NCBI GenBank assembly: GCA_034620365.1
Contig: JAQGEQ010000263.1
Coordinates: 1-64,000, forward strand
Length of the DNA stretch: 64,000 nucleotides
Origin: Pegea sp. RAD2-039
Taxonomy: Eukaryota > Chordata > Thaliacea > Salpida > Salpidae
Reading direction: 5' to 3'
Shown here: positions 1 to 43,176 of the stretch, piece by piece
Layout: each line of letters opens with the position of its first letter
Numbering within the stretch: position 1 is the stretch's first letter
Made by a program: the position numbers and the translations under genes
Notes under the pieces: generated by a model
What the model was told of the DNA's origin: nothing
What the model saw: the letters and a program-made list of their open reading frames with translations, nothing else
Databases searched by the model: none

Positions 1-63
1 AAATGTTTACAGTTTTATATGAGAAACTAATTTGTAAAAATTAAAACTTTTATGCTTGCTTAC

Positions 64-1660: not shown

Positions 1661-1661
1661 A

Positions 1662-2945: not shown

Positions 2946-3327
2946 ATTTCTGTTGTTTAAAGATATACTGCCAGCTATCTTCAAAAAACTTTGTATTTCA
3001 ACCAAGTTTTTCCGGTTGATATGACGCTCATGTGTCCGGATAACAGTTCCAGAGCATTACTTCAGGAAGTTTCTGATCTCACGTGGTAACTTTTTGGTTT
3101 AAACATTTGGAATCTATTTTGCTTCGAGTAATTACTGTTGGATGATTAGATTTTTGGTAGCGTGCATAGTTAGTCAAAAAGATAGTTAGCCCAAAATTAA
3201 ATAGATCTGTTTTCGTCTGAGGTCACCTTAGACTTGGAACTTGTACATCAGTAGCTATCAGTAAGTTCTGCCGCTTGTAGTTGTCTATCAAGATTGAAAC
3301 AGAAATTCGTTCCACATAAACGAACCA
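2946..3327. other. Unit interior between CR1 fragment and unknown locus
   Basis: No gene recognised. The stretch is repeated at 17,346-17,729. The inverted unit lacks most of it: its two ends map to about 2,920 and 3,210 in this unit, so the missing piece marks the permutation breakpoints. Confidence 0.5.
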
Positions 3328-4965: not shown

Positions 4966-4989
4966 TTTTTATTTATTTATTACAATAAA

Positions 4990-5028
4990 TGTGAAGGAGG
5001 GTGCCTAAAGAGAGCACCTCTCGCTAAC
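4990..5028 (-). repeat. 3' terminal hairpin of CR1 element
   Basis: In the element sense the sequence reads GAGGTGC, TCTCTTTA, GGCACCCTC, a stem of 5-7 pairs with a short loop. The same structure is kept with compensating wobble in the older fragment family (2,870-2,910; 31,070-31,095). Conservation between subfamilies suggests it is the RNA feature recognised by the reverse transcriptase. Confidence 0.6.
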
Positions 5029-5125
5029 ACACATTCTCACAAATTTGATCTATTTGACGTGTAAACGAAAAAGCATATGACAGTGAAGAATTGCACAGAA
5101 TCTTAGTATTGTAAAAGAGAAAAAT

Positions 5126-6367: not shown

Positions 6368-6422
6368 ATGGCTAGTTATATGGTTGTGATGATATGTTCT
6401 TGAGTTCTGCGAATAACCGAAG

Positions 6423-9067: not shown

Positions 9068-9105
9068 GATAGATTTTTAGTAACTCCCACCAAAGTATAC
9101 CAAGT

Positions 9106-10127
9106 TAATAAAGTATACCAAATATACCAAGTTAATAATATATAATAAATAATAATAAGAAAAATATAAATGAATACATCACAAAAGTTAATCACAGCTT
9201 ATTAGCAGTTATTCCAAAATGTGTATCCACCAAAATTTTATAAAAGATTTTTACTGTCACCAACTACAATATATAATATTTATATAATAGACATTTCACT
9301 TCTTAGAAATAACTTTATCAGAACTTATAAGCACTTATTCAAATAGAAACCTATAACCTGAAACTTATTCAAATAGAATTATCTTTTGCTTATGTTGAAA
9401 TTCGGTAATTAAGACTTTCACTGTTCAGTTTTATGCACTCTTCTTGTTGACAGTTCGTTATAAGAGCTGTATGAATTTTTATCTAGCTATTCCTTTTTAG
9501 TAAAAATAGTTGAGAATAAAAAAATATTTAAATCTTTTTCAACAAAAGTACTTTTATGTCTTCCTCTATGAATAACTCCTAACTCAGAAAAACTAAGTTA
9601 AATGTAACTACTAGTTGCTTTCAAAAATGATATCAAATGTAGAACCGTTCAGTTTATTATCTTGATCTTACAAAAACTCAGTTATATTCGAAAAGAAAAA
9701 AATTGATATCTACTTTATAACACAACAAATCAACACTTGAAGTAATTATCATGAGAACACGTTATCAGAAAGTTAATTTATAAGCGCCTTGATATGAGCA
9801 AACTTCTTGATTAAGAAATGATAAATGTTGAAAGCAGTAATTGTAAAAGATACTCAAATCTTTAGTGATGAAAACTCGTTTGAATTTAGAAGACAGAATA
9901 AACAAACTTTTCAATCTTCTCATTTTAAACTCAAGAAAAAACATGATATGAAAGATTAGATGTAAACAATTGCTAACTTTGAAAATACTATTTGATTACA
10001 GAATGTTTTTTTTTTAATTTAATACATAAGACAGTTAGAAGATATTTTCGAAAGGAATATTTTCTAATAATTACTTTTGTGCTTAATATCATATAAACAA
10101 CTTCAAAAATTATTGAAAAATAAGTTG
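9106..10127. other. Spacer between CR1 5' end and DNMT1-like copy 1 3' end
   Basis: AT-rich with no gene. It holds the 3' UTR of copy 1 at its right end. The sequence recurs at 23,511-24,470 with a short internal deletion, and inverted at 38,192-40,430, where a SINE-containing insertion and a second ~410-bp insertion interrupt it. Confidence 0.6.
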
Positions 10128-13100: not shown

Positions 13101-14267
13101 GAGATTTTTTTTCAATGCTTTAGCCGGGATACGTCTTCGATTTGTAGTTTTTGCTTCACTAAAATCGATCAAACTTTGGATGGAAAGATGCGCCAAAAAC
13201 TTCTTACTTTTTGTTTGGAGCTAAAATAGAATTTAAACAATTATTAATAGAGTTTCAACCTTACTATGTAAAGATTCCAGATATAAACTTTGGAAAGTTT
13301 CTATATATTTTTTGTCTAACAGAATCTATCATCAGTGTTAAAAATATTCAGCAAAATCTCAATTCTATTTTCTATATTTATAACTTTTTAAATATAAATT
13401 AGAATCAGAAAATAGTAAAATGAATAAAATGTTACCTGATCGACTACAAACTGAGCATGTTTGCGAAGATGCTCTTCACCTAGACTTTTTAGCGTCCAAG
13501 ATGCACTAACATCCTGAGATTCTAAACTTAAAAGAAGATCTTCATAGGTTGCTTCTCCACTTCCATCTTGCTTAAGAAACTCAATAATTTTATTTGCCAA
13601 ATAAAACTTTTCTTCCATAGTTCGAAATTGGTTCAGGTATTCATTTGAAGGCTTTTTAATTGTATACAAAGCATATTCAGTTGACAGCACAACACATAGT
13701 TGCTTCTGTTCATCACCAGAATCTATTAGAAAAATCATTTGTGATTGAAGTTCATTTACCAATAACAAAATTTGTAATTAGTTAAGTTTTAAAAGTATTA
13801 CTAATTTCAAATCAAAATGAAAATAGCTATTTAATATGATACAATTTTATTTTACAACTATTTTAAACTTTTATTTAAATAAATTTTATACCTTGACGTT
13901 CCCAACTTAAAATTGGACCAATTTTTACTGGACTTCCTTTCTTTGAAAAATCAGCATCCACAAGATTATACAATTCACCAGTTGCATAGATCGTAGCATC
14001 TCGTTCGAGTAAACCTTCAAGGGTGCAAACATGTTTGCTCTCACAAAATATAGTAAAATCTGAAAATAGTAGATGTTATCTTTATGTTGTTGGTAAAGAT
14101 TGAAAGTAGGTACCATTTATTATATATTGCAGTTCAACTTGTTCTCCACCTCTGTTCAGTTCTTCATCAGTAACTACTACAAACTCATCTTTATACTTCT
14201 TTGTAGGAGTATATCTTTCAACATTACGCAGTCTTTGATAGCAGACGTCGCATCTTTGTGCAAACAT
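10128..14267 (-). CDS. DNMT1-like pseudoenzyme, copy 1 (six exons)
   Basis: Spliced minus-strand gene. Exons: 14,276-14,114 (ATG at 14,267), 14,059-13,892, 13,722-13,436, 13,220-13,089, 12,998-12,907, 12,726-10,128. All introns are GT-AG and phases match, giving 1,143 aa. RFTS domain lies at ~1-250 (starts RCDVCYQRL; ends EHLRKHAQFVVDQ), then BAH1 ~300-410 (LKVGDCIFIP) with Cys pair CFLC after it, BAH2 ~490-620 (PFQIGRIESIRV, VRKFFRPEDTS) and the methyltransferase fold ~660-1,143. No CXXC finger lies between RFTS and BAH1. The scaffold is clear: MEVFGGCGGLSEGL, CDYYRPRF, LAAAPGEKLPS, LLHPDQLRVVSIRECA, PPPMAKAIGLE. Catalytic parts are gone: PPCQ became LFYQ, ENV became QSS, QTRRR became ESLYS, GNAV became ERSF, and the motif II glutamate became Q. 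DNA methylation activity is therefore not expected. The open frame despite this suggests a retained non-catalytic role. Copies 2 and 3 are paralogues. Confidence 0.9.
10893..10934 (-). other. Hypervariable segment 3 (after motif VIII), copy 1
   Basis: Fourteen codons. Nine differ from copy 3 (37,391-37,432) through ten substitutions, none synonymous: S/G, G/Y, S/I, L/F, I/N, R/L, K/E, Y/N, I/N. The flanks (NNLDVDIDE and ENERDHRSS) are unchanged. In copy 2 the segment is mostly deleted. Confidence 0.85.
11250..11318 (-). other. Hypervariable segment 1 (former catalytic loop), copy 1
   Basis: Twenty-three codons after motif IV. Against copy 3 (37,007-37,075), 11 codons differ through 13 substitutions, all amino-acid changing (for example Y/C, P/Q, N/D, S/D, P/R, A/D, R/C). 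Bases just outside on both sides are identical. In copy 2 this stretch is replaced altogether (HGYYGTDKTSDTEQD...). Confidence 0.85.
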
Positions 14268-14473
14268 TTTTGCTAGCTTTTGAAAATGAAAATCCAATTA
14301 TTATTTCATCAGTTAATAGAAAAACTAAGCAAGATACTTAATCAAATAAAAGTTAATGATGTTTTACAAACTAATAGTAGTTCAAATGAAACATCAATAT
14401 TTTGATCTATAAATGTTTACAGTTTTATATGAGAAACTAATTTGTAAAAATAAAAACTTTTATGCTTGCTTAC

Positions 14474-14515
14474 TTCTGTTACTTCGGTTTCTTTTATCTT
14501 TATTGTAAGATTCGT
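14474..14515 (-). other. Exon 2 remnant of DNMT1-like copy 1
   Basis: Fourteen open codons between an acceptor TGCAG and a GTAAGC donor, phase 0 into the first coding exon at 14,276. In copy 2 the matching exon joins an upstream ATG exon. In copy 1 that exon has been deleted and this one has no ATG, so it is probably 5' UTR. Confidence 0.5.
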
Positions 14516-16060
14516 CTGCATAAAAAGTATTTTTAAATTTTATATCAAAAATTGATTTTTAATTTTTGATACCACAAAGAAGTTAAACGAAATTCAAATC
14601 AAAACATATTTTTAGATATATATTTTTTACCATTGATTTTAAGAACCAATAGTCTAGCTTAAATTTGATAAAAATTAACTTTATTTAATTGTTTATTTCA
14701 CACAATTTACATTTATCAAATACCAATCTCAAACCTTATAGTTAAGTTGCTTCAAATTGGATTTTTCAACTAAAAATCTTTATATAATCTTATATATTTG
14801 ATAAAGTATCCTACAAAACGAATAAGATTATATTAATAAATAGTAAAAAACATTTGCTAATAATTTCATAAGTTATTATTCTGATATTAAATATATCATT
14901 TTTCAAATATATTTCAAGAACATTATTTTGACTTAAATTATATCACTGCTGATTTTATGATGAGAATATTTTATAAAATCTTTTGCCTGCCTCTTAATAT
15001 AAGTCCTTTAAATTTGGACAAACTCGTAATATTTGAGAATAATTAAATAATTTAAACATAATTTGTTTATGTAACACCCTGATTTAACAAATAGTTATAT
15101 AGTAGACTTTGCTCTTTATATTCTTATAAAAAAAACTAACTTCCTTTTGTACCAAAACTGAATGTTTAAAGAATCTTTGCTTATGCTGAAATCTAACTTG
15201 ACAAAATACTTTCTCTTACATAAAAACTGTTTAAATGTAATCTACTAAATAGATATACAACAATTTTACAGATATTTATAAAAAATATATAAACTTCTGG
15301 TGGTGGTCTCAAACACTATATTAGTTTCTTTAATTCAAAACTGTAACTTTAGCTATAAAACTTATTTGGTACTAGCTACAAGGGTTTCTTATATTTTTTC
15401 ACTGAAACTACATTACTTATGAAATTACAAAGATATGATGAAAGCTCTGATAATAATTTATATTAAAATAAAACAATTTCAAAAAGACCTCTTTTAACAA
15501 TAAAACAGATAGAAATAGTCAAAAAACTTTAATCTTTTATATTTTTGGTTAACAAATTAATTTATTTTTTAAAACATTTCCATAATTTCCAATTAATTCT
15601 GGACTTACAAAATTTACAAAAACTTTGATACTTAAATTTTCTCACAGAAATTACCACTAAATTTCAAAAAAGTGAAGAAAATATTCAAGATCGGTAAAAT
15701 TTAATAAAAAATAATATAATATATAAAGCAGACAGAGAAATAAGAGATCCGCAGAGAATATCTAGAACTCGAAACGACAATTTAGTGTTAACTATGTAAG
15801 AAACAGACAGACATGAAATTGTCGTGCTAAATTGAGAGAATGGTTTAGATTTGAAAAAAGGACAATTTTTTCGGTCACGTGATCTTCAAGTTTGGTCATC
15901 CAGAAAAAAGCCACATTAGAAAAGAAATAATAGAAAAACTGCGATGACTACATAAAACTTTAAGTGTTTGTGTGCTACTCAGCGTTGAGAAAGGTTAGTT
16001 ATTATTGGTTTGATAAATATTACTGATTGATAAATACAAACTCATTACTGTATTTAGAAA
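14516..16060. other. 5' flank of copy 1, no gene seen
   Basis: AT-rich, near identical to 106-1,660. No reading frame worth reporting. Confidence 0.6.
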
Positions 16061-16061
16061 T

Positions 16062-17345
16062 TAAACAGTTTTATCTTAAGGTGGACTGAAGATTACTTAT
16101 CATGTAGAACCCAACAGACTCGTGTAAAAAGATCTTTATCTACTTCCAGTCAAATCACTAGAGGTGTTCCTCAGGGTTCTGTTCTAGGTCCGCTTCTCCT
16201 TTTAAGTTTTATTGAAGACCTCATCAGAAGACTAGTAGTAGATGATGTCAGTGTGTTTGTGTATGCTGATGATATCAAACTATTATCTTGTAATCCTCCA
16301 AAACTTCAAACTGCACTACACACTGTACAAAACTGGTCTATGAATTGGCAGCTCAGAATCCAGCCCACAAAGTCTGAACTTATAACTTTTTCTTCTAAAC
16401 CAGCTGTACATTCCTTGAACTATTTTCCATCAATGGATTTATGATTCAACGAGTATCTTCTGTCGTATACATCTGCATTATTCTGACTTTAAATGGCACA
16501 ATTATGTTTCCAATCTTTGCAAAATCAATCAAACTTGTCTACCTTATCATAAAGACCTTTAATTCTAAAGATCTATACTTTTTTATTAATCTTTTCAATT
16601 TGTAGGTCCAATTTTTGAATACAATCTTAGTACATGGATGCCGTATCAAGTTAGTGACATCAAAAAAATCGAATCTGTTCAGGCGACATTTACGAGATTA
16701 GTATGCAGGAAACTTAATATAAAATACGATAGTTATAAACATCGTCTCAGTCTCTTCAATTTAGATACTTTGGAAATTCGACGGATTAAATACGACTTAA
16801 TTCTTATTTTTAAAATTATCCACAATTTAATTGACCTTCAGTTTGATGACCTCTTTTCTATTAGTCCTTCCCTCAAGTTATATAACCTCAGGCAACACAT
16901 ATTACATCTTAATAAGCCCATATAACCTGGTGCATTAATCAGAGCGATTTTTTTCTCATTCTACACAAATAGTACTAGGTTTCAGCTGCCATTAGACATT
17001 GTCATATCAGAATCACTTGGGTTGTTCAAGCAGAAGTTGAACCATAATAATATTGCCAACATTGTCATTTCTAAACTGTAAATTTGTTCCTTTCTTTAAT
17101 ATTACTATAATTCTATTTAATAATAAAGCATTTGTCATTTCTAAACTGTGATTTTTCCCTTTTTTATATTATTAACATTCTATGTAATTGTTCACTACTG
17201 AAATGCCATGTGTTACATCTTCTGCTTTCTGTATTTCTAACTTAATAGATTTTATTTGTGAGAATATGTGTTAGCGGGAGGTACTCTCTTCAGGCACCCT
17301 CCTTTGCATTTTTTTATTTGGATTTATTGTTAAAACAAATGAATA
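16062..17345 (+). mobile_element. Degraded CR1 3' fragment (unit 2)
   Basis: Direct copy of 1,662-2,945. It is slightly better preserved: VFVYADDIKLLSC to SSKPAVHS is open at 16,253-16,444, and the C-terminal block MPYQVSDIKKIES to LHLNKPI at 16,638-16,925. Frameshifts still separate the parts, so it is dead. Confidence 0.85.
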
Positions 17346-17729
17346 AAATTTCTGTTGTTTAAAGATATACTGCCAGCTATCTTCAAAAAACTTTGTATTT
17401 CAACCAAGTTTTTCCGGTTGATATGACGCTCATGTGTCCGGATAACAGTTCCAGAGCATTACTTCAGGAAGTTTCTGATCTCACGTGGTAACTTTTTGGT
17501 TTAAACATTTGGAATCTATTTTGCTTCGAGTAATTACTGTTGGATGATTAGATTTTTGGTAGCGCGCATAGTTAGTCAAAAAGATAGTTAGCCCAAAATT
17601 AAATAGATCTGTTTTCGTCTGAGGTCACCTTAGACTTGGAACTTGTACATCAGTAGCTATCAGTAAGTTCTGCCGCTTGTAGTTGTCTATCAAGATTGAA
17701 ACAGAAATTCGTTCCACATAAACGAACCA

Positions 17730-18691
17730 ATGAGCTACATCAGTTTACAAGATGATAAAATCGAACCTCTAAAAGACAACCCCCAAATTGGGGAAGTAAC
17801 AAACGTCGTAAGTTTCAAATATTTTCAGCTAATTTCAAGCATATGTTTCAAATGTTGGAGGAAGACACGTGATAGTCGATCCTGTCATCTTCAGAAGAGG
17901 TCCTATCAAGATACAACCAGGAAGAAAAATAAATGAGAGATCTTCATGAGCTAAGAAGCTTCTGATGGTTTTAATCAGAAGCTGAAAAACGATGATTCTT
18001 ATTCTACTGACTCTAATCAAGAACTAAGAAGATTCAGACTTCAAAGAAGATGCAGTGCGATAGAAATGCTTTTCTGGTAACTAATGTGAATTCAGTTGTA
18101 ACAACCACACACATCCGATGCTATAAAATACAAAATGAGATCGACATAGCAGTGGCGTCGATACAACTGAGTACAACGACAACTGGATCAACCTAAAAAC
18201 AATCAGAATACTGCCACTTAAAATCAAGAATTTTTATGCTTGATGTTTCTTTCTATCTTTCAAACTCTCAATCCTCAAAGTTTCAATGCTTCAACATTTA
18301 TACTTTACTATTTCTTTCAAACTTTTATTTCAAATTCACTTTTCAAACTGTATCCCAAAATCCCTAATATTTTTCTTGTACATCTCGAGAACCCTAAAGT
18401 CCCTGAGCTAATCGTATATATAGAGATCTGTATTTACTAAAGGATCTATCCAGATGTCTAACTGCCGATGAAATGGACTTTGAGCTTATTTCCGTGTAGA
18501 GCTACAAACAGAATGGTCGTCAGCCTGTTTCAACAAGTGAAGTGAAAGTTGGTCTTGAGGACAATCTGGAGATAGAAGAAGAAGATGAAGAATCAGGCTG
18601 CTCTGAACTTTTATTGGTGCGAGTACCAGGAGCTATGATGTCAATTCGACGAGTTGAAGAGCTGCGGCCTGGAAGTCCACCAGATTATTAA
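17730..18691 (+). pseudogene. Degraded exon-like locus of unknown origin (unit 2)
   Basis: Counterpart of 3,328-4,286. The first part opens MSYISLQDDKIEPL. The second is broken by TAG in GTGTAGAGCTAC near 18,496 but has the frame-preserving GTGCGAGTACC, so it can be read SYKQNGRQPVSTSEV to the terminal GSPPDY and stop. The TAG would also serve as a splice acceptor, in which case the second part would be a terminal exon. Family not recognised. Confidence 0.35.
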
Positions 18692-19366
18692 GAGATTAAC
18701 TTTCATAGCTACGGACTTGTTTGGTTTGTTGGTTTTGTGGCGTGGATTGTATTTCTGATGGAATTATAAGTAAGTGCAACCTTTCCGTTTACGATCCAAT
18801 TATTTGGTTGGGAAAATTTAGTAAAGTTTTGCTATATAACAGAAGATTGGCTCGACGCATACGTAAATGTCATTTAAAAGCTTGTCATGGTTGTTTTTGG
18901 CTTTTCTGTGTATTTTATAGTTGTTTTGAATACGATTGTTGTAGTGCGCGTTTTATGATAAATTATAGCATCTGTAGAGAATTAATATCATTAAGTTGAT
19001 TGGAAATTTAATTAGAAATTATTATTAGATTTAAGTTGATTATGAATCAGTCAGATACTATATTTAAATACTTTCAATATATTTGATTGTTTCTAAATTA
19101 TTCAGATTGTAATATTGGTAATATTCTATTTCTCTTCAAATAATCTGATAGATTGATCAGTTTAAACACTATCTTCTAGATTAAGTTTAACTTGAAATCT
19201 AAAACCAAATTTTATTGCGCTTACATATTTTTTGTTAATATCTCTTTGTAATTCAAAGCTATGTCATCTGTGTTGTTATTAGCAGCACTATATCAAGTGA
19301 TACCAAGCTAACAGTGTTCAGCTATAGTTTGTATTTCCGTCTGTGTTTATCTTGGCTGTATTTTGA
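18692..19366. other. AT-rich spacer next to CR1 element 3' end (unit 2)
   Basis: Copy of 4,287-4,965 with a few substitutions. No gene. Confidence 0.5.
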
Positions 19367-19526
19367 TTTTTATTTATTTATTACAATAAATGTGAAGGAG
19401 GGTGCCTAAAGAGAGCACCTCTCGCTAACACACATTCTCACAAATTTGATCTATTTGACGTGTAAACGAAAAAGCATATGACAGTGAAGAATTGCACAGA
19501 ATCTTAGTATTGTAAAAGAGAAAAAT

Positions 19527-20768
19527 TCACAGTTTAGAAATGGCAATGTTGGCGATATTATAACAATTCAGCTTTTTTTTGAACAACACAAGTGATTTTG
19601 ACATGACAATCTCTGATGGCAGATTGTTCCATGTACTGATTGTGCGGTATGAGAACAAACTTAATCTGGTTAACGTAGCTGGTGGAGTGGGCTTATTAAG
19701 ATGTAATTTATGTCTTCTAAGTTGATATAACTTGAGAGAGGGACTAATGGAGAAAAAGTCATCAAACTGAAGATCAATTAGGTTGTGAATAATTTTAAAA
19801 ATCAGAATAAGGTCGTATTTAATTCTTCGGATTTCCAAAGTATCTAGATTGAAGAAGCTGAGACGATGCTTATAACTCTCGTATTTGATATTAAGTTTCC
19901 TGCAAACCAATCTCGTAAATGTTGCCTGAACAGATTCGATTTTTCTGATATCACCAACTTGATATGGCATCCATGCACTGACATTGTATTCAAGAATAGG
20001 GCGTATGTACAGTTTGAAAATGTTGACGAAAAACCATGGATCTTTAGAATTAAAAGTCTGTATGATGAGGTGGACAAGCTTGATAGATTTTCCAAAGATT
20101 CTGGAAACATAACTGTGCCATTTGAAGTCAGATGTCAGAGTAATGCCGAGGTCTATGACTGAGGATACTCGTTCAAGAATAGATTCATTGATGTAGTATT
20201 GGTTGCTGAAGTTGGCAGCTGGCTTACGGGAGAATGTTATAACTTCAGAATTTGTTGGCTGGATTTTAAGTTGCCAATTCGCAGACCAGTTTTCTACAAT
20301 GTTTAGTGCAGTTTGGAGTTTTGGGTGAGAACCAGATAATAGCTTGATGTCATCTGCATACACAAACACACTGACATTGTCTACTGTTATTAGTCTTCTG
20401 ATGAGGTCTTCAATGAAAATCAAAAAGAGAAGTGGACCCAGAACGGAACCCTGAGGAACGCCGCTGGTGACTTTACTAGGAGTAGATAAAGATCTTTCTA
20501 CACGGGTTGGTTGGGTTCTACCTGATAAGAAATCTTCAATCCATTTTAAGATAGAGTTGCTGATTTTTATGTTTTTCAATACTGTAATGAGCTTGTTGTG
20601 TGGAACAGAATCAAAAGGTTTAGCAAAATCAAGGTATATGATGTCACATGGAGTATTACTTTCGTAATGAGCTGTAAGCTCATTGAAAAAAGTGAGATGT
20701 TGAGTCAAAGAAGATCTTTGCTTAACAAAGCCATGCTGGACATCAGATATTAGATGATGCTCCGTCAA
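19527..20768 (-). pseudogene. CR1 ORF2 3' part, reverse transcriptase (unit 2)
   Basis: 413 codons, only two residues different from the unit 1 copy in this part (A/V in ISDVQHG, L/I in FFVNIF). Motifs A, B and C (VYADDIKLL) are intact. It is separated from the endonuclease part by the shared frameshift. The joining stretch here keeps CRPVSLTSVICRTQEH without the extra base loss of unit 1. Confidence 0.9.
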
Positions 20769-20824
20769 ATGGCTAGTTATATGGTTGTGAATGATATGTT
20801 CTTGAGTTCTGCAGATAACCGAAG

Positions 20825-22525
20825 TCAGCGAAACTGGTCTGTAGTTAAGTGCAGTGTTTGTGGAAGTCTTCCCCGCTTAAGAGTCATGTTAAAGAGTAGC
20901 GATAAGGGTAGCGCTAAAGAAGAAGTACTTTTTCTTAAAAACAAAGCTGGGATTTGATCTGGGGTGTTGGAAACTGTTGATTTTAGAGAAGAAATAGCCT
21001 TAGATACTATATCAACTGTTATGTCTAGATCTACCATCTCAGAGATATTTGAAAGGATATTGGAGTAGGAAATAGTAGGAGCATTGCCATCATCGGTTAT
21101 AAAAACCTTTTCAAATTGTTTGTTTAGCAATTCAGCTTTATTCTTTGGTTCCATCACCAGCTGATTGGCGTTATCGAGCAAGGGAGGTAGATGAGATCTC
21201 GCCTTAAGCTTGTGATTAATGAAGCCAAAAAACGTTTTCTTGCTAGGTGAAGATAAGATTGCACTTTCTTTTCCTAAATAGAGGCTATAAACTGATTTCT
21301 TGTAGACTAGACAAAGATCTTTGTATAGAGGTTTGATGGAAGGATCTGCTTTAGTTTGTTTGTATAAGAGGTTTTTCAAATGCTGTAAATTCCTTAAATA
21401 TCTTGGCAAGTGTGGTTTTTTGTTGACTCTATATAAAGGTATGAACTTTTTAATTGACTCATTAACAATGTTAGTAAACCTCGAGTAGATATCATTGATG
21501 TCTTCGGTAGAGTTAAAAACAGAAATCCAGTCAACACCTGATAAAAACTTGTTTATACTGTTATAATTTCCACGATAAAAGTTCCGTATGCTTGGAGTTT
21601 TACTGTTCGTAGAAAAAGTTTGTTGGAGCTTGAATTCAATCATGTTGTGATCGCATGTCAGAGCAAAAGGTTCATTTTGATCAACGTAGATAACGTTCTC
21701 AGGTTTTGATGTGATGAGAAGATCCAAAGTATTACAACTAACTTGGGTTGGAAAAGTAACCATCTGAGATAGATTATTGGCATCAAGGAAGTTTACAAGG
21801 ACATGACTCAGATTGGCTAAATTAGTTTTGTCTCCATTCAAATTAAACAATTTTCCATTGAATGCTAAAGTTGGGTTATTCCAATCAATTCTACTAAAAT
21901 TAAAATCCCCGAGAATATAAATCTCAGGACAAACAAGGCTTTTCAGAACCTTCAATAAGGCCTTAATAGTAACATCATCGTTAACTTTAGACGGTGGTAG
22001 GGAGGTACATATAAAGCGGGAAAAATTAGACTTTGAGTAAAGAAAATTGAAAGCAATAATCTCAAATCCTGGGCAATCAATGGTATTTATCTTAATTCTT
22101 GAAATCATGGGTGCCAGTGATGTTTTATAGATTACACAAACACCGCCGCCTCTATCAAACAGTCTGTCACAGCGCAAAGCACGAAAAAGATCACTGTCAT
22201 CCAGAAAGGAGTCAGGATAAAAGGGTTTCAACCAAGTTTCGGTAATGAAAACAAATGTAAAATCTTGAGAAAGCAAAAGAGCTTTCAATTCGAAAATTTT
22301 GTTGATAATTGACCGTGCGTTGAAAAACATACCTAATATAAAAGAAAAATTGTCTTTTTGACACTTGTAAAATTTGGTGGTAGGCTTCTGTGTACTGTTA
22401 TCTTGGGCTGGAAGCATAGTATTAATAATTTTGTGCGAAGAGAGGTTGAATAAGGGTGATGTGGGTCCAGTGGTTATTTTGCACTTCAGTTTTTTGAAAA
22501 GACCTTCACAATCTTTAAAGCCCAT
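20825..22525 (-). pseudogene. CR1 ORF2 5' part, endonuclease (unit 2)
   Basis: 566 codons with the same endonuclease motifs as unit 1 (ITETWL, LGDFNFSRIDW, TCDHNMIEF) and the same premature end (...TTDQFR). It overlaps the upstream ORF1 frame by 40 bp. A few replacements differ from unit 1, for example SCNTLDLL for SGNTLDLL. Confidence 0.9.
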
Positions 22526-23468
22526 GGTGGACCTCGAACTTTGTATTTGAAATCAGTTGGTTGCTCTTTCTGATTTCGGCTGTACATCTCTTTTAGAAGA
22601 CGCTTATTTTCTAAGCGATCATCTTCACACATATCATGTGCTACTCTGATGCCCTGGAATTTTTCGTCCTGCATAAGCTTATACAGCTTAGCAAGAAACT
22701 TACGTTTGTCCCATCCTTCCTGAAAGGACACTTTTAACGGTCTTTTATGATTTGATCTTTTTGCCCCGAGTCTGGTCATTGAAACTTTTGGAGCGTCCAC
22801 AGCATCAAGGCTTTGAGTGCACATTTGATTAAAAGTCTTGATGTCATCGTCTTTATCAGTCTCAGAGACACCAAAGATGATGACATTGTTTTCTCTATCC
22901 TCCCGGTCCAGAGTAAGTTTTTTGTGTGTGTCAGTAACCTTCTTGGCAAGAAGTTGCACCACGCTAGTATTTTTTTCGGATCCAGAATTACCAACAACTG
23001 AGGCCCATGTGAGAGGCTTCTTTGTGGAGGCATCCAGTTCAATCATAGATTTGGATAAGATAGAAATCTTTTCATTGATTTTGGCAACATCGTTGCCAAT
23101 TTCGGATTTAAATTTGGCCAATTCAGTGGATATGGTGTTGCTGACGTCGGACAATAGGCTTGTATTAGTGTTGGACGAGGTAGTTGTTTTGTCCATAGAT
23201 CTACATTTAATGCAGGACCAACAAAATCCCACTTGCTGCATTTTATTAATTTCAAATATATCATAAATTTTTTACTCACATCACTACAAGTGAGGTGAAA
23301 CCTAGAGAGGCATTTGATGCAATCTATTGCCAGATCTTTACCAGAGCAAGTTTTGTTACAAGCTTGGCAATTGCCATTGCAAGCTTGTTTTGAAGAACTT
23401 AGTTTGCTTGGGTTTTTTGGAGCTTTTGACCGCAAGGTCCTGTCATTTGTATCTACCATAGTTTCCAT
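22486..23468 (-). pseudogene. CR1 ORF1, frameshifted (unit 2)
   Basis: It starts like unit 1 (METMVDTNDRTLRSK) with the Cys/His finger, but a run of T is one base shorter near 23,268, which shifts the frame inside the finger. The original frame resumes as an open stretch from 23,241 to 22,486 (MQQVGFCWSCIKC ... VKVFSKN). This is a recent single-base loss compared with unit 1. Confidence 0.88.
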
Positions 23469-23510
23469 GATAGATTTTTAGTAACTCCCACCAAAGTATA
23501 AAATTTATAA

Positions 23511-24470
23511 GTCAGATAAATGTATGTGATATGTATATAAATAAATATATAAATAAATATACCAAATTAATAATATATAATAAATAATAATAAGTAAAAA
23601 TATAAATAAATACACCACAAAAGTTAATCACAGCTTATTAGCAGCTTTTCAAAAATGTGTATCCACCAAAGTTTTATAAAAGATTTTTACTGTCACCAAC
23701 TACAATATATAATATTTATATAATAGACATTTCACTTCTTAGAAATAACTTTATCAGAACTTATAAGCACTTATTCAAATAGAACCTATAACCTGAAACT
23801 TATTCAAATAGAATTATCTTTTGCTTATGTTGAAATTCTGTAATTAAGACTTTCACTGTTCAGTTTTATGCACTCTTCTTGTTGACAGATCGTTATAAGA
23901 GCTGTATGAATTTTTATCTAGCTATTCCTTTTTAGTAAAAATAGTTGAGAATAAAAAAATATTTAAATCTTTTTCAACAAAAGTACTTTTATGTCTTCCT
24001 CTATGAATAACTCCTAACTCAGAAAAACTAAGTTAAATGTAACTACTAGTTGCTTTCAAAAATGATACCAAATGTAGAACCGTTCAGTTTATTATCTTGA
24101 TCTTACAAAAACTCAGTTATATTCGAAAAGAAAAAAATTGATATCTACTTTATAACACAACAAATCAACACTTGAAGTAATTATCATGAGAACACGTTAT
24201 CAGAAAGTTAATTTATAAGCGCCTTGATATGAGCAAACTTCTTGATTAAGAAATGATAAACGCTGATTTTAAACTCAAGAAAAAACATGATATGAAAGAT
24301 TAGATGTAAACAATTGCTAACTTTGAAAATACTATTTGATTACAGAATGATTTTTTTAAAATTAATACATAAGACAGTTAGAAGATATTTTCGAAAGGAA
24401 CATTTTTTAATAATTAATTTTGTGCTTAATATCATATACACAACTTCAAAAATTATTGAAAAATAAGTTG
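23511..24470. other. Spacer between CR1 5' end and copy 2 3' end
   Basis: AT-rich copy of 9,106-10,127 with a ~70-bp deletion near 24,260. No gene. Confidence 0.6.
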
Positions 24471-27400
24471 TTACTCAATACAACGAAGTAATTCTAAACC
24501 GATTGCTTTTGCCATTGGAGGTGGAAATGATCTTTCAATTTGAGAATATTTCTCAGCGACAGTTCCACAAAATCTATAATAATCAGGGAATCCTCGGAAA
24601 CGCGCACACTCTCTTATAGACACTACACGAGGTTGATCAGGATGTAAAAGTTTTCCTTCTATAGGAGAAGCTAATACAGTTTCATAGAGGCCGTCCAGAG
24701 GCATTCGTCCATAAAAGCCAGGTGAATCATCAAATAAACTAAAGGAACTCTTTGACAAAGGCCAGGGATAAATAAGATCAAGGCTTTTATAATCTTTGTC
24801 ACTATCTTGACCATCTTGGACACTTTTACTTCCTTTCCCTTTCTTCTTTTTTCTATTGTTCATAGATCTATATCGGTAGTCGAGCTCAAACAAACGGGAT
24901 CCTTTTTTTAATACTATTCGTTTGCGAGATAAATCTTTAGAGTGACTTTCAGTGGTCCGAGGAGTATTATCAGAACTTGATTGATCCAACAATGCAATAG
25001 TTCGACTGTAATGATCAGTTAAGACATCAGAATGACTTCTAATATTTTGCTGAAACGATGTCTGTGGTTTCATCGAATAATCCATCGCTTGATTACTTTC
25101 GTTGCTAGTCAAAGATAAGTCAGTAGTAATCTTAGGAAGATCACTAATCGTGTCTCTCACTGTTATCTGTCTAAATGGCGCGTTTTCCAACTTATTAAAA
25201 CTACTTTGATGAACTCTTTCATCGATATCAATTTCGTGGTTTTTTTTATGAAACGTATATAAGGGTGCAGGATAAGAAGGAAGCTTCTCTCCTGGAGCAG
25301 CAGCAAGAATGACCAGGCTGTAAAGTGATTCAGCTACACCATAGTGTCCAGCTTCCAGTAAACCGTAGGAACACTGATACCCAAAACGCAGCAGCACAGC
25401 CATTACGGCTTCCAGAACATTTCCATTACAGCAGCTCCTTATCCGATTAGAACTTTGGAGAATTATGAAGCGAGGACGGTAGTAGTCACAAAAAGATAGA
25501 AATCCTGAAATGAATCCCTCATCTCGTCTTACATCTTGCTCTGTGTCAGACGTTTTATCTGTTCCGTAGTAACCGTGATAAAACAGCACTCCACAAAGCA
25601 ACTCTACCTCTCCTTTACGAGGATATCGTTTCTTCCTTTTTTCTGAATCTGAATAGAGATCCTTTAAAATGGCTGTACTACCTTGTGTAAAGACTTTGGC
25701 TTGTGGGTTGTTTATTTTATAAGATTCAGTTGAACTTGATTTATTCTGAACAGCCCACTTTAAATCTGCAACACCTGATTGCTTTAATCCCTCTGACAAA
25801 CCACCACAGCCACCAAATACTTCCATTGTTGCCAACTTCCTGAAAGATGTCTTCTTTGGTCTTGCGGATGACGAACTTTTCTCATGCTTTTGTAAGTTGG
25901 CGAACCTTTTACTTTTGACATTAAACTTCTGTTTATAGTAAAAGCTGGGTTCCATCATTTGCTCTCTCTCGTCGTATATCTCATCTTCCTTGCTGTATCT
26001 GACCGAACATTTCCTTAGAATATCCGTTTCTTTAACCTCTTCCAATTCATCACTCCAAAACACTTCATTAATTCCTTTTGTGACGTAATCTTTTGCTTGC
26101 AAGGATGTATCTTCTGGACGAAAGAACTTTCTAACCATAATTGTTGTTTCATCTTTGTTATCATTGACTCGGATAGATTCAATTCTTCCAATTTGAAACG
26201 GTTCAATGACACCACAATCATTTTTGTCGACAAATTCTTTGTGAAGTTTCAGGTTTTGCAAAGAATTAGGTTGATTGGGCGAAGATTTTGGTTTTAAGAA
26301 CACCGAATCATTGAGAAAAATTTCCTCTCCACCGATTCGGATACCTTTACAAGAAAAGATCTTTCTTGGAAGAGATGGAAATCTAGTTCTAAAAAATTTT
26401 GTTCTTTTCTTCCATCTTTCATTAGACTTTTGCCTGCACAGAAAACAATCGATACCTTCTTCATCTAGTGGTTCTTGAGTTAGATTAGGTAAGTCTTCAA
26501 ACCTTCCACTTTTAATATTAAGAAATTTCTGAACGAAATATTTCTTATTTCTTGAGAGCTGGTAAGGTAAGTCTATAGTATCATTCAAAGCTTGTGGTTC
26601 CAAAATTTCTACTGTAACTTTTTTCACCTTATCTGTTAACATCACCTCAGAACATTTGTCAGTGAAATAAAACTCTCTTGGGTCGCCCAAAACAGATAAG
26701 AATGTCTGTTGGGATGGAACCATCCGAATAAAATGGGCATAGATTGGCTTTCTTTCATAAAGCTCATAAAAAAATTCATCCAATTCATCTTCAAACGTTT
26801 GTAGAATGTATCCAAATATTCCATTATTGCCATCTTTTGTTGTGGGAATGAAGATACAATCGCCTACTTTTAAAGATCGAGGATCCATTATATCATCTGC
26901 TGTTGATGAAATTCGAAAAAGTTCCAAATTGTTTGCTGTGTTTCGTCTGCTCGTAAACAATGTAAGAAACTATTTAGTATCTTGATAAATATTAAACTAT
27001 ATTAAGGAAACAAATTTGTTAAAATTTGAAAAAGATGCTGTAATGTTCGATTATTTCTCTGATAAAGTTATATAAATATAATCTTAAAAATAAATTAGAT
27101 TATTTCAAAAATAATGAAAGAGTTACCGATCAGCGAAATCTTCTACTGCAGAAGTATTTAAGTTCAAAGTTGAAACTAACTCCTTCATATCCGAAAAGAA
27201 TATTTGCTTAGCATATTTCTGTGAAAATTAAATAAAGGTTGATGGCTGATATATGTCATTATGTTTTAGATATTAGATCTTTTTACCTTCTTGTTTATGA
27301 GATTTTTTTTCAATGCTTTAGCCGGGATACGTCTTCGATTTGTAGTTTTTGCTTCACTAAAATCGATCAAACTTTGGATGGAAAGATGCGCCAAAAACTT

Positions 27401-29013
27401 CTTACTTTTTGTTTGGAGCTAAAATAGAATTTAAACAATTATTAATAGAGTTTCAACCTTACTATGTAAAGATTCCAGATATAAACTTTGAAAAGTTTCT
27501 ATATATTTTTGGTCTAACAGAATCTATCATCAAAGTTAAAATTATTCAGTTAAATCTCAATTCTAATTTCTATATTTATAACTTTTTAAATCTAAATTAG
27601 AATCAGAAAAAAAAGAAATAAAAAAGATGCTACCTGATCGACTACAAACTGAGCATGTTTGCGAAGATGCTTTTCACCTAGACTTTTGAGCGTCCAAGAT
27701 GCACTAACATCCTGAGATTCTAAGCTTAAAAGAAGATCCTCATAGGTTGCTTCTCCATTTCCATCTTCTTTAAGAAACTCAATAATTTTATTTGCCAAAT
27801 AAAACTTTTCTTCCATAGCTCGAAATTGGTCCAGGTATTCATTTGAAGGCTTTTTAATTGTATACAAAGCATATTCAGTTGACAGCACAACACATAGTTG
27901 CTTCTGTTCATCACCAGAATCTATTAGAAAAAATCATTTGTGATTGAAGTTCATTTACCAATAACAAAAATTGTAATTAGTTAAGTTTTAAAAGTATTAC
28001 TAATTTCAACTCAAAATGAATATAGCTATTTAATATGATACAATTTTATTTTACAACTTTTTTAAACTTTAATTTAAATAAATTTTATACCTTGACGTTC
28101 CCAACTTAAAATTGGACCAATTTTTACTGGACTTCCTTTCTTTGAAAAATCAGCATCCACAAGATTATACAATTCACCAGTTGCATAGATCATAGCATTT
28201 CTTTCCAGTAAACCTTCAATGGCGCAAGCATGTTTTTTCTCACAAAATATAGTAAAATCTGAAAATAGTAGATGTTATCTTTATGTTGTTGGTAAAGATT
28301 GAAAGTAGGTACCATTTATTATATATTGCAGTTCAACTTGTTCTCCACCTTTGTTCAGTTCTTCATCAGTAACTACTACAAACTCATCTTTATACTTCTT
28401 TGTAGGAGTATATCTTTCAAGATGACGCAGTTCTTGATTACAGACGTCGCATCTTTGTGCAAATATTTTTGCAAACTTTTGAAAATGAAAATCAAATTAT
28501 TATTTCATCAGTTAATAGAAAAACTAAGCAAGATACTTAATCAAATAAAAGTTAATGATGTCTTACAAACTAATAGTAGTTCAAATGAAACATCAATATT
28601 TTGATCTATAAATGTTTACAGTTTTATATGAGAAACTAATTTGTATAAATTAAAACTTTTATGCTTGCTTACTTCTGTTTCGTCGTTTTCTTCCATTTTC
28701 ACTGTAGGATTCGTCTGCATAAAAAGTATTTTAATTTTTATATTCAAATTCAAGAGTTACACTCTAGTGATTTTTCTTATATAATCGTCACATCATAGCA
28801 ATCTAATAGTTGGAGTTTATTTGGGTCAAATTAAGGTTTATCTACTCTCAAATTGGTTTTAAAAAATGGAGAGTTATTTTCTTATTTAAATATTTCAAGA
28901 CTTTAAAATATTAAAATCCTTTTTTTTTAAACTGATTTTCTTACATCATTAGGTGAGCTTGAGCTCGAAATTGATCCGCTTGAAGATGTTAGAACTTGAT
29001 TCTTTTTCTCCAT
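24471..29013 (-). CDS. DNMT1-like pseudoenzyme, copy 2 (eight exons, with original start)
   Basis: The most complete copy. Exons: 29,013-28,945 (ATG, MEKKNQVLTSSSGS, serine-rich), 28,714-28,673, 28,475-28,313, 28,258-28,091, 27,920-27,634, 27,418-27,287, 27,218-27,127, 26,946-24,471. Phases agree throughout, giving 1,142 aa. The third exon has ATA where copies 1 and 3 have ATG, so exon 1 supplies the start. RFTS ~38-290 begins with a canonical-looking RCDVCNQELRHLERY. BAH1 is shorter than in copies 1 and 3 (YILQTFEDELDEFFYELYE). The methyltransferase scaffold is retained (EVFGGCGG, CDYYRPRF, LAAAPGEKL, VVSIRECARFRGFPD). Motif IV is LFYH, VI is QSS, VIII is ESLYS and X is ERSF, so it is catalytically dead like the others. 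The target-recognition region is long and basic (NRKKKKGKGSK). No CXXC. It diverges from copies 1 and 3 much more than they do from each other. Confidence 0.9.
28945..29013 (-). CDS. Coding exon 1 of copy 2, missing from copies 0, 1 and 3
   Basis: Twenty-three codons, ATG to ...SSSSPND, then GTAAGA donor. The ~300 bases around it (about 28,745-29,040) are absent from the matching places at 118-160, 14,530-14,570 and 33,750-33,800, where the flanks join directly. The deletion is shared by three loci and so predates their duplication. Confidence 0.7.
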
Positions 29014-34058: not shown

Positions 34059-37000
34059 ATGTTTGCACAAAGATGCGACCTCTGCTATCAAAGACTGCGT
34101 AATGTTGAAAGATATACTCCTACAAAGAAGTATAAAGATGAGTTTGTAGTAGTTACTGATGAAGAACTGAACAAAGGTGGAGAACAAGTTGAACTGCAAT
34201 ATATAATAAATGGTACCTACTTTCAATCTTTACCAACAACATAAAGATAACATCTACTATTTTCAGATTTTACTATATTTTGTGAGAGCAAACATGTTTG
34301 TACCCTTGAAGGTTTACTCGAACGAGATGCTACGATCTATGCAACTGGTGAATTGTATAATCTTGTGGATGCTGATTTTTCAAAGAAAGGAAGTCCAGTA
34401 AAAATTGGTCCAATTTTAAGTTGGGAACGTCAAGGTATAAAATTTATTTAAATAAAAGTTTAAAAAAGTTGTAAAATAAAATTGTATCATATTAAATAGC
34501 TATTTTCATTTTGATTTGAAATTAGTAATACTTTTAAAACTTAACTAATTACAAATTTTGTTATTGGTAAATGAACTTCAATCACAAATGATTTTCTAAT
34601 AGATTCTGGTGATGAACAGAAGCAACTATGTGTTGTGCTGTCAACTGAATATGCTTTGTATACAATTAAAAAGCCTTCAAATGAATACCTGGACCAATTT
34701 CGAGCTATGGAAGAAAAGTTTTATTTGGCAAATAAAATTATTGAGTTTCTTAAGCAAGATGGAAGTGGAGAAGCAACCTATGAAGATCTTCTTGTAAGTT
34801 TAGAATCTCAGGATGTTAGTGCATCTTGGACGCTCAAAAGTCTAGGTGAAGAGCATCTTCGCAAACATGCTCAGTTTGTAGTCGATCAGGTAACATTTTA
34901 TTCATTTTACTATTTTCTGATTCTAATTTATATTTAAAAAGTTATAAATATAGAAAATAGAACTGAGATTTTGCTGAATATTTTTAACACTGATGATAGA
35001 TTCTGTTAGACAAAAAATATATAGAAACTTTTCAAAGTTTATATCTGGAATCTTTACATAGTAAGGTTGAAACTCTATTAATAATTGTTTAAATTCTATT
35101 TTAGCTCCAAACAAAAAGTAAGAAGTTTTTGGCGCATCTTTCCATCCAAAGTTTGATCGATTTTAGTGAAGCAAAAACTACAAATCGAAGACGTATCCCG
35201 ACTAAAGCATTGAAAAAAAATCTCAAAAACCAGAAGGTAATAAGATCTAATATCTAAAACATAATGACATATATCAGCCATCAACCTTTATTACAAGATC
35301 TCACCACAAGGGTTTAATTTTCACAGAAAATTGCTCCAAAATTATTCCGTTCGGATATCAAGGAGTTAGTTTCAACTTTGAACTTAAGTACTTCTGCAGT
35401 AAAAGATTTCACTGATCGGTAACTCTTTCATTATTTTTGAAATAATCTAATTTATTTTTAAGATTATATTTATATAACTTTATCAGAGAAATAATCGAAC
35501 ATTACAGCATCTTTTTCAAATTTTAACAAATTTGTTTCCTTAATATAGTTTAATATTTATGAAGATACTAAATAGTTTCTTACATTGTTTACGAGCAGAC
35601 AGGACACAGCAAACAACTTGGAACTTTCTCGAATTTCATCAACAGCAGATGATATAATGGATCCTCGATCTTTAAAAGTAGGCGATTGTATCTTCATTCC
35701 CAGAACAAGAGATGGCAATAATGGAATCTTTGCTTATATTACACAAACATTTGAAAATGAAGCTGACGAATTTTATTCAGATATTAAATTTTATAATGTT
35801 TATTATCATCATTATGAAAGCAAGCCAATCTATGCCCATATTATTCGGATGATTCCATCACAACAGACATTCTTATCTGTTTTGGGCGACCCCAAAGAGT
35901 TTTATTTCATCGAAGAATGTTCTGTGGTGATCTTAACAGATAAGGTGAAAAAAGTTCCAGTAGAAATTTTGGAACCACAAGCTTTGAATGATACTATAGA
36001 CTTACCTTACCAGCTCTCAAGAAATAAGAAATATTTCGTTCAGAAATTTCTTAATATTAAAAGTGGAAGGTTTGAAGACTTACCTAATCTAACTCAAGAA
36101 CCACTAGATGAAGAAGGTATCGATTGTTTTCTGTGCAGGCAAAAGTCTAATGAAAGATGGAAGAAAAGAACAAAAGTTTTTAGAACTAGATTTCCATCTC
36201 TTCCAAGAAAGATCTTTTCTTGTAAAGGTATCCGAATCGGTGGAGAGGAAATTTATCTCAATGATTCGGTGTTCTTAAACTCAAAATGTCCTCACAATCA
36301 ACCTAACTGGTTTAAAGCAAGAAAAATTCCAAAACTTCACAAGGATTGTGTCAAAAAAAAAGAGTGTGGTGTCATTGAACCGTTTCAAATTGGAAGAATT
36401 GAATCTATCCGAGTCAATGATAACAAAGATGAAACAACAATTATGGTTAGAAAGTTCTTTCGTCCAGAAGATACATCTTTGCAAGCAAAAGATTACGTCA
36501 CAAGAGGAATTAATGAAGTGTTTTGGAGTGATGAATTGGAAGAGGTTAAAGAAACGGATATTCTAAGGAAATGTTCGGTCAGATACAGCAAGGAAGATGA
36601 GATATACGACGAGAGAGAGCAAATGATGGAACCCAGCTTTTACTATAAACAGAAGTTTGATGTAAAAAGCAAAGAGTTTTCTGATTTACTAGAACATGAG
36701 AAAAGTTCGTCATCCGCAAGACCAAGGAAGGCATCTTCCAAGAAGTTGGCAACAATGGAAGTATTTGATGGCTGTGGTGGTTTGTCAGAGGGATTAAAGC
36801 AATCAGGTGTTGCAGATTTAAAGTGGGCTGTTCAGAATAAATCAAGTTCAACTGAATCTTATAAAACAAACAACCCACAAGCCAAAGTCTTTACACAAGG
36901 TAGTACAGCCATTTTAAAGGATCTCTACTCAGATTCAGAAGAAAGGAAGAAGCAATATCCTCGTAAAGGAGAGGTAGAGTTGCTTTGTGGGGGTCTTTTT

Positions 37001-38191
37001 TATCAATGTTGCAGACAAGATTTGGAATTCTCCTTATATGACTTGCGTACAATGGATCCATGCATTGATACAAATTCAAAACTAGATGACCTATTCGTGG
37101 CAGCATTTCTATCTTTGTGTGACTACTACCGTCCTCGCTTCATAATTCTCCAAAGTTCTCGTCGGCTGTTGGACTGTGAAGACACATCTAATCTAGAAAT
37201 CATAATGGCTGTTCTGCTGCGTTTTGGTTATCAGTGTTCCTACGGAACACTGGAAAGTGGACACTATGGTGTAGCTGAATCACTTTACAGCCTGGTCATT
37301 CTTGCTGCTGCTCCAGGAGAGAAGCTTCCTTCTTATCCCGAACCTTTATATACTTTTTCGAGCAACAACCTCGATGTGGATATTGACGAAGGCATTTTTT
37401 ATAGTATTTTTAAAAATCTGGAAAATGCGAATGAAAATGAAAGAGATCATCGAAGTAGTTGTAACAAGTTGGAAAACGCGCCATTTAGACAGATAACAGT
37501 GAGAGACACGATTAGTGATCTTCCTAAGATTACTACTGACTTAATTTTGACTAGCAACGAAAGTAATCAAGCGATGGATTATTCGATGAAACCACAGACA
37601 TCGTTTCAGCAAAATATTAGAAGTCATTCTGATGTCTTAACTGATCACTACAGTCAAAATATTTCATGTTTCTATCAAATAGGTTTTGATAATATTCCTT
37701 GGAATCCTGACAGCGAAACTACAGATTTTTTATATAAAGAAATAGTGTTAAAGAATGCATGCTTTTTCTTTGGACTTCAGCGCGAATTTAAATTGGTTTT
37801 CGAAACAATAAACGGAGAAAGAGTTATTAAACGTGCTCTACGTAAAGATCGTAGTAAAGATGATAAAGACCTTGAGTTTCTTCGAGCTGACACCTTGGCA
37901 GATTATGCTTTTGAACATATAGAGAGTGTTTTTTTTCGGCCAGGCGATTTTGTACGAATACCTTGGGATGGCCTCGCTGACACAACATTACTTCCTCCTA
38001 TAGAAGGAAGACTTTTACATCCTGATCAACTTCGTGTAGTGTCTATAAGAGAGTGTGCGCGTTTCCGAGGATTCCCTGATCATTATAGATTTTGTGGAAC
38101 TGTCGTTGAGAAGTATTCTCAAATTGAAAGATCATTTCCACCTCCAATGGCAAAAGCAATCGGTTTAGAATTACTTCGTTGTATTGAGTAA
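34059..38191 (+). CDS. DNMT1-like pseudoenzyme, copy 3 (six exons)
   Basis: Exons: 34,050-34,212 (ATG 34,059), 34,267-34,434, 34,603-34,889, 35,105-35,236, 35,327-35,418, 35,599-38,191. GT-AG junctions and phases are consistent, giving 1,141 aa. The long open frame extends 14 bases upstream of 35,599 only because intron sequence happens to stay open; the acceptor is ACGAGCAG. Domains as in copy 1: RFTS, BAH1, a Cys/His-bearing loop in BAH2 (KCPHNQPNWFKARK), BAH2, methyltransferase fold. Motif I is EVFDGCGG, with an extra G-to-D change in the SAM loop. Motif IV is LFYQCC, VI QSS, VIII ESLYS, X ERSF. Dead as an enzyme, open as a gene. Framework sequence is almost identical to copy 1, but the segments at 37,007-37,075, 37,391-37,432 and ~37,684-37,975 differ heavily and almost only at amino-acid-changing positions. 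Confidence 0.9.
37684..37975 (+). other. Hypervariable segment 4 (target-recognition region), copy 3
   Basis: Lies between motifs VIII and IX, where C5-methyltransferases carry the DNA target-recognition domain. Compared with copy 1 (about 10,340-10,640) it has in-frame length changes (PWNPDSETTDFLY against PWKHLVTFVSLDLLY) among conserved blocks (YKEIVLK, GERVIK, FVRIPWDG). In the sub-stretch 37,832-37,870, 5 of 13 codons differ through 6 substitutions, all non-synonymous. Confidence 0.8.
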
Positions 38192-38740: not shown

Positions 38741-38744
38741 AGTT

Positions 38745-43120: not shown

Positions 43121-43176
43121 CTTCGGTTATCTGCAGAACTCAAGAACATATCATTCACAACCATATAACTAGCCAT

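Follow-up and report, generated by a model that had tools for sequence, protein, structure and literature searches.

Probable Diversifying Selection on the Former DNA Face of Apparently Inactive DNMT1 Paralogs in the Salp Pegea sp.

Introduction

Why would close copies of a DNMT1 gene differ most in the parts with which DNMT1 touches DNA? The question is raised by the first 64,000 nucleotides (hereafter the window) of contig JAQGEQ010000263.1 from Pegea sp. RAD2-039 (assembly GCA_034620365.1), where the original prediction, made from the nucleotide sequence alone, placed a catalytic-loop segment under extreme diversifying selection between two gene copies. In DNMT1, a core chromatin enzyme, the contact loops are the better-conserved part, scoring 0.86 versus 0.74 for the rest in 14 homologs (13 proteins from a homolog search plus mouse DNMT1). 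The DNA-contact elements given for mouse DNMT1 include the catalytic loop (1227-1243), R1278-R1279, target recognition domain (TRD) loop I (1501-1516), and TRD loop II (1530-1537) (PMC6316889). Among the matches listed from the open-licence literature, no report of diversifying dead DNMT1 copies was found.

Gene Copies and Gene Models

Three DNMT1 copies were identified in the window, copies 1 and 2 on the reverse and copy 3 on the forward strand, inside duplicated units also bearing LINEs (Table 1). The contig (C32) starts with the window, and a search of the genome (105.7 Mb, 387 contigs) using copy 3 recovered seven DNMT1-type big exons, all seven candidates being scored. Four of the seven were dead by motif, i.e., copies 1-3 and copy 4 on contig C52, such that the dataset comprises four dead copies from one assembly; c1-c4 denote these copies, c5, c6, and c7 the active DNMT1 paralogs, and 2dlnL values are given against an omega of 1. 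Copies 1 and 4 were 99% alike across 11.2 kb. The first 6.4 kb of C52 matched window positions 1-6375 at 99%, which makes copy 4 a probable continuation of the array with its 5' flank at the contig start.

A six-exon model fitted all four dead copies with no internal stops and five introns that were all GT-AG. Copy 2 was more diverged (73.7% protein identity with the copy 3 big exon) and carried ATA at the site of the copy 3 ATG, and its true start may sit upstream since the match to P0001, an active relative 88% identical to c5, starts at P0001 residue 29. When the methyltransferase portions of copies 1-3 were used as protein queries, 59 proteins were returned (best 242 bits, 33% identity), among them no further close dead copy. 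The nearest DNMT1 and LINE homologs were environmental proteins, with named animals ranking lower.

Table 1. Positions of gene copies, variable segments, and repeat units in the window.
Feature	Position	Strand	Remarks
Copy 3, dead DNMT1 gene	34059..38191	+	GT-AG at five introns, 0 internal stops
Copy 3 exons	34059-34212, 34267-34434, 34603-34889, 35105-35236, 35327-35418, 35599-38191	+	Six-exon model
Copy 1, dead DNMT1 gene	10128..14267; big exon 10128-12726	-	Open frame, GT-AG introns; start placed from the copy 3 alignment
Copy 2, the more diverged dead DNMT1 gene	24471..28466	-	Open frame, GT-AG introns
Flagged 23-codon segment (former catalytic loop, copy 3)	37007..37075	+	Counterpart in copy 1 at 11250-11318
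Variable segment A of copy 3 (motif IV plus catalytic loop)	36998..37093	+	c1-c3: 12 nonsynonymous, 1 synonymous
Variable segment A of copy 1, matching 36998-37093	11232..11327	-	Codon alignment
Variable segment B of copy 3 (helix adjoining loop, past motif VI)	37154..37213	+	c1-c3: 3 nonsynonymous, 1 synonymous
Variable segment C of copy 3 (TRD start, insertion missing in copy 2)	37388..37495	+	c1-c3: 12 nonsynonymous, 0 synonymous
Variable segment D of copy 3 (TRD with zinc cluster places and TRD loops I and II)	37679..38002	+	c1-c3: 69.8 nonsynonymous, 8.2 synonymous
Variable segment D of copy 1 (TRD), matching 37679-38002	10317..10646	-	Codon alignment
5' flank belonging to another gene copy beyond the contig start	1..515	-	98% identical to 33401-33915
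Direct repeat units (intergenic DNA and LINEs between gene copies)	1-9831 and 14411-24266 (span 1..24266)	.	98.4% identical over 9.87 kb

The LINE copies at 5126-9076, 19527-23477, and 40467-44376 were approximately 97-99% alike, lay in the units bearing the DNMT1 copies, and contained PHD-like, endonuclease, and reverse-transcriptase frames (all but the reverse transcriptase named by eye), the reverse transcriptase being 92% identical to an environmental protein. A satellite built from the 11-bp unit AGAAGATTAGA (187.6 copies) occupied 55502-57564, with related arrays up to 58414. In the window, no tRNA was found and no Rfam family reached its gathering score, and a viral-contig scan found no relative.

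Retained Domains and Lost Motifs

The RFTS domain (DNMT1-RFD, PF12047) was identified in copy 3 (6.2e-12, exon 34605-34889) and by alignment in the other copies, while BAH (PF01426) and DNA_methylase (PF00145) both passed their cut-offs in copies 1-3, with one BAH stretch scored per copy. CXXC (PF02008) was not found in the sequences scanned for it, namely the three big exons, copy 3 exon 3, and P0001. Within the methyltransferase domain, PCQ of motif IV was replaced by FYQ (c1, c3, and c4) or FYH (c2), and all four dead copies had QSS in place of ENV (motif VI), ESLYS in place of QxRxR (motif VIII), and ERSF in place of GNAV (motif X). For comparison, PPCQ, ENV, and QTRRR or QTRCR were present in 14/14 homologs and GNAVPPP in 13/14. 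Motif I was retained (FxGxGG as FGGCGG or FDGCGG), as was motif IX (RVVSIRECARFRG). The TRD Cys-x-Cys, which we take to supply zinc ligands, was gone from the dead copies together with the lysine of TRD loop II, a loop four residues shorter than in DNMT1. Judged by these motifs, the four copies are likely without catalytic activity.

The flagged segment aligned with the mouse catalytic loop (1227-1243) plus a nine-residue insertion, which agrees with its proposed identity, although it is a working loop no longer given the change of PCQ to FYQ or FYH and the loss of motifs VI, VIII, and X.

The AlphaFold2 model of copy 3 (mean pLDDT 70.6) was mostly confident in BAH and the methyltransferase core, and matched DNMT1 crystal and cryo-EM structures at TM-scores (by model length) of 0.70-0.75. 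Confidence fell to pLDDT ~36-41 over most of residues 712-790 in the TRD. Results of the fold control were mixed: active P0001 likewise had low confidence at its catalytic loop (824-833) and at TRD loop II (1118-1125), but not in the TRD bulk, so that confidence in the loops counts as no evidence and the copy 3 TRD block (712-790) as weak evidence. The scaffold outside the interface was under constraint (omega 0.59 over four copies, 2dlnL 6.11), and a product would presumably be made and fold as a DNMT1 scaffold. The missing motifs IV, VI, VIII, and X and the absence from copy 2 of the ATG of the copy 3 model are features that pseudogenes decaying after the loss of catalysis would share; such decay is nevertheless highly improbable, as four copies held 0 internal stops and 0 broken GT-AG splice sites and scaffold omega lay below 1.

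Differences Concentrate in the Former DNA Contacts

Between copies 1 and 3, the 13 base differences in 11/23 codons reported for the flagged segment were recovered, as were the 2/215 differences in the intron 34890-35104 (4/707 over all five introns) and the single difference (codon 35924) in the first ~420 bases of the big exon. That all changes were replacing held for 11/11 changed codons, but a silent step is possible among the 13 because codon 37031 reads TAT (Tyr) versus TCC (Ser), giving 12 replacement and 1 silent change by Nei-Gojobori counting. The flagged segment was part of the first of four variable segments that also covered the helix adjoining the loop and much of the TRD (Table 1); copy 2 pairs had 20-21 nonsynonymous changes in segment B.

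Columns aligned to the DNA-contact loops differed far more often than the rest of the methyltransferase domain, with 28/53 versus 48/429 in c1-c3 (Fisher p = 1.4e-11), 28/41 versus 102/412 in c1-c2, and 31/41 versus 105/412 in c2-c3 (p from 3.7e-8 to 1.4e-11 for the three window pairs), counts that leave out gapped columns (12 per copy 2 pair, 0 in c1-c3) and take in the insertion common to copies 1 and 3. Without the insertion columns, the figures were 20/39 versus 39/405 in c1-c3 (p = 1.4e-9), 28/39 versus 101/405 in c1-c2, and 30/39 versus 104/405 in c2-c3 (8.1e-9 to 3.4e-10 for the three pairs). By element, c1-c3 differed at 6/17 columns of the catalytic loop, 12/16 of TRD loop I, and 1/4 of TRD loop II, again without the insertion.

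Tests of Selection

The interface used for codon tests consisted of the loop, the helix, and the whole TRD, its limits being taken from the mouse structure but set after the copies were seen. Replaced codons were in excess over silent ones in the interface of c1-c3, c4-c3, and c1-c2 compared with the rest, a shift that was not significant in the active pairs (p = 0.79 and 0.60) and that for c1-c4 lacks contrast given 3:0 in the rest (Table 2).

Table 2. Codons replaced, silent, and total in the interface and the rest; pairs c2-c3, c2-c4, and c6-c7 are omitted.
Pair	Interface (replaced, silent, total)	Rest (replaced, silent, total)	Result
c1-c4	25, 2, 258	3, 0, 589	p = 1, too few changes in rest
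c1-c3	73, 2, 256	11, 6, 589	p = 0.0004
c4-c3	72, 3, 256	12, 6, 589	p = 0.0014
c1-c2	108, 17, 227	70, 26, 577	p = 0.016
Active c5-c6	12, 7, 229	60, 28, 585	n.s.
Active c5-c7	76, 51, 229	180, 138, 581	n.s.

The flagged segment by itself was rejected as proof of selection, since neutral simulations gave as few silent steps in 54/400 (kappa 1) and 28/400 (kappa 2) runs and the codon model for the catalytic loop returned an omega of 2.74 with 2dlnL of only 1.12. The claim that drift is excluded was thus upheld in part: the contrast with introns and scaffold is real and drift at one age could not produce it, but the 69 bases alone fit neutrality, and the signal comes from the pooled former DNA interface, above all the TRD. 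Pooling the four variable segments of c1-c3 gave 107 differences, 10.2 of them silent, a ratio reached in 0/400 neutral runs at kappa 1 or 2; for the whole exon, runs as extreme numbered 2/200 (kappa 1) and 0/200 (kappa 2). The same segments had an omega of 2.88 (2dlnL 8.56), or 2.45 (4.93) without the hard-to-align TRD end, and the whole interface of copies 1, 4, and 3 had 2.26 (6.56), or 2.00 (3.91) with the TRD end dropped. Interface omega among the close copies therefore ranged over 2.0-2.9, and positive selection on their pooled interface is supported by these codon comparisons at p ~0.003 to 0.05, without significance for the catalytic loop alone or with the near-saturated copy 2 added (all four copies, omega 1.28, 2dlnL 1.79, no difference from 1). 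In the control, active c5-c7 had omega of 0.24 in the interface and 0.20 in the rest, and c5-c6 0.41 and 0.47.

The cleanest pair was c1-c4, though its far 3' flank differs too (18/259). Intergenic DNA differed at 36/5856 positions, introns at 2/708, the big exon before the loop at 0/1400, and from the loop onward at 32/1194, while the interface held 26 nonsynonymous changes versus 3.8 expected at the intergenic rate and 3 synonymous versus 1.0 (p = 0.07). The genome holds more copies than the window, and these show the pattern again, with 25 interface codons replaced and 2 silent in c1-c4. The usual silent substitutions, which it had named as counter-evidence if seen in more copies, occurred in the active paralogs and partly in copy 2 pairs and were absent in copies 1, 3, and 4.

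Differences this strikingly local, in a window that begins at a contig end inside a repeat, might also come from local hypermutation or from assembly error in the repeated units. Neither predicts the shortage of silent change or the clustering in DNA-contact loops, and frames were open in four copies on two contigs, which leaves this explanation the least credible of those considered. Pseudogene decay, hypermutation, and assembly error were set aside on the open frames, the splice sites, the shortage of silent change, and the contact-loop clustering.

Segment Age and Exchange Among Copies

A further reading combines relaxed constraint with gene conversion and has no positive selection: once catalysis was gone the DNA face drifted freely, conversion homogenized introns and scaffold, and old differences were left in the segments by chance or mechanism. 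In its favor, amino-acid-identical codons carried silent differences more often in the variable segments than in the background for c1-c2 (14/64 versus 30/564, p = 3.4e-5) and c2-c3 (12/58 versus 26/564, p = 5.7e-5), the segments thus being older than the scaffold in copy 2 pairs, where interface omega was ~1; gene conversion is therefore likely part of the story. Exchange among copies was evident in a run of 16 sites at which copies 1 and 2 agreed against copy 3 (0/5000 shuffles as long), 21 such sites falling in 38501-38762, a 3' flank switch that demonstrates conversion or crossover, and the active c5 and c6 also form a patchwork, with ordinary silent changes. Against it, replacement in copies 1, 3, and 4 exceeded the neutral level (0/400 runs; 2dlnL 6.56), strict silent differences were not raised in c1-c3 (2/119 versus 6/643, p = 0.36), the same loops were variable in all three window pairs, and runs with copies 2 and 3 alike against 1 were not clearly long (4 sites; 106/5000 shuffles). 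Relaxed constraint with conversion is accordingly rather unlikely as the whole account.

The switch region at 38501-38762 lies in the 3' flank outside the genes, where copies 1 and 2 differed at 1/263 positions, 1 and 3 at 22/262, and 3 and 4 at 4/259; the far 3' flank thus varies as well (18/259 for 1 versus 4, 22/262 for 1 versus 3).

Path-counted silent steps in the c1-c3 interface numbered 10.2 against 0.9 expected at the intron rate, ~8 of them within multi-change codons, so that part of the excess reflects age or mutability. Giving the variable segments of c1-c3 their own, free neutral rate yielded a better fit (-2737.58 and -1150.81 summed) than sharing one rate (-3891.97). Purely recent selection was ruled out by this fit together with the extra interface silent change in copy 2 pairs. 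The word "extreme" in the original prediction has accordingly been softened: the replacement excess among close copies is present, but the variable segments also predate the scaffold.

Active Paralogs and Methylation Context

The catalytic motifs (PPCQ, ENV, QTRxR, and GNAVP) were kept in c5 and c6, which lie in opposite orientation on C57, and in c7 on C249. Phylogenetic analysis placed the dead copies as one clade (100/100) inside the group of c5, c6, c7, and P0001, with c5/c6/P0001 as its neighbors and c7 branching outside (support 83/93). The stem of the clade is long, at 0.69 changes per column. Sequences near dead copy 4 (C52:12295-14388) and near active c5/c6 (C57:833406-835843) were ~70% identical, a possible old segmental duplication that fits a dead array derived from the C57 locus. 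At C57:818609-827433, differences between c5 and c6 fell in a BAH block and near TRD loop II and included ordinary silent changes, and their catalytic loops read SGINR (c5) and SLINR (c6).

A DNMT3-like frame was found on C262 (named by eye from motifs) along with four SRA-domain matches on C74 and C76, one on C76 having three in-frame stop codons. UHRF1-like genes may thus be duplicated too, as far as the matches suggest, and the methylation toolkit is likely present; CpG observed/expected in the window was 0.66. Such a setting would suit dead copies acting as DNMT3L-like regulators that bind or tune active DNMT1s, UHRF1, or DNMT3, each tuned once by sub-functionalization with no continuing race, and the three catalytic-motif DNMT1s, the DNMT3-like frame, the SRA matches, and the retained RFTS and BAH are consistent with this role. 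Partners within the same genome are, however, no obvious driver of the change in c1-c4, where copies 99% alike over 11.2 kb still hold 26 nonsynonymous interface differences, and a regulatory role of this kind appears improbable.

Interpretation

The dead genes are open and share one exon model, all four lack motifs IV, VI, VIII, and X, and they differ in the catalytic loop, the helix, and the TRD. Replacement went beyond neutral expectation among copies 1, 3, and 4 in segments that are constrained in the active paralogs. These results are best explained by diversifying selection that likely re-shapes the former DNA face of dead DNMT1 paralogs while recombination homogenizes their scaffold, a reading given a probability of roughly 0.6. 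In this mechanism, recombination would likely keep the scaffold and introns of the copies alike while selection favors new versions of the former DNA-binding face. RFTS and BAH would still bring the product to replicating chromatin, and the variable face would bind something that is itself changing, such as selfish or satellite DNA, a protein encoded by such DNA, or a rival partner, in arms-race fashion. The step from a face that diversifies to one that recognizes a changing target is our inference, and the face may bind protein rather than DNA because the ancestor's DNA-contact motifs were lost. It is tentatively conceivable, though on balance doubtful, that a maintenance methyltransferase was remade as a hypervariable recognition family, in which a dead scaffold sits at replicating chromatin and its face, re-shaped copy by copy, tracks fast-changing selfish DNA or its proteins. 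Such a family would be the DNMT1-derived equivalent of PRDM9 or KRAB zinc-finger diversification.

If diversifying selection on the former DNA face is correct, the DNMT1 scaffold would be reusable as a diversifying recognizer, with three catalytic-motif DNMT1s beside a dead array whose face outpaces its introns. Its ready-made copies lend themselves to a search for the target, and the array could serve to study how conversion and selection act together in one gene.

Comparison With Known Systems

The dead copies resemble DNMT1 in their RFTS, BAH, and C5-methyltransferase domains and predicted fold (TM 0.70-0.75), and differ from it by the absence of motifs IV, VI, VIII, and X and the TRD Cys-x-Cys and by the shorter TRD loop II. 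DNMT3L is a catalytically dead regulator of DNMT3A/B and, like the copies described here, a dead C5-methyltransferase paralog kept as a gene; the Pegea copies are instead of the DNMT1 lineage, several, near-identical, and variable at the former DNA face. In PRDM9 and the KRAB zinc-finger families, the scaffold stays alike and DNA-contacting positions diversify under positive selection, a pattern that the dead copies may share (replacement excess in copies 1, 4, and 3, not significant with copy 2 or for the catalytic loop alone); the dead copies are not zinc-finger arrays, however, and with the ancestral DNA-contact motifs gone any DNA binding by them is putative. In toxin gene families such as venom phospholipase A2, exons outpace introns through mostly replacement changes. 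The exons of the dead copies likewise diverge faster than their introns, mainly by replacement, but on a chromatin-protein scaffold with change focused on one face.
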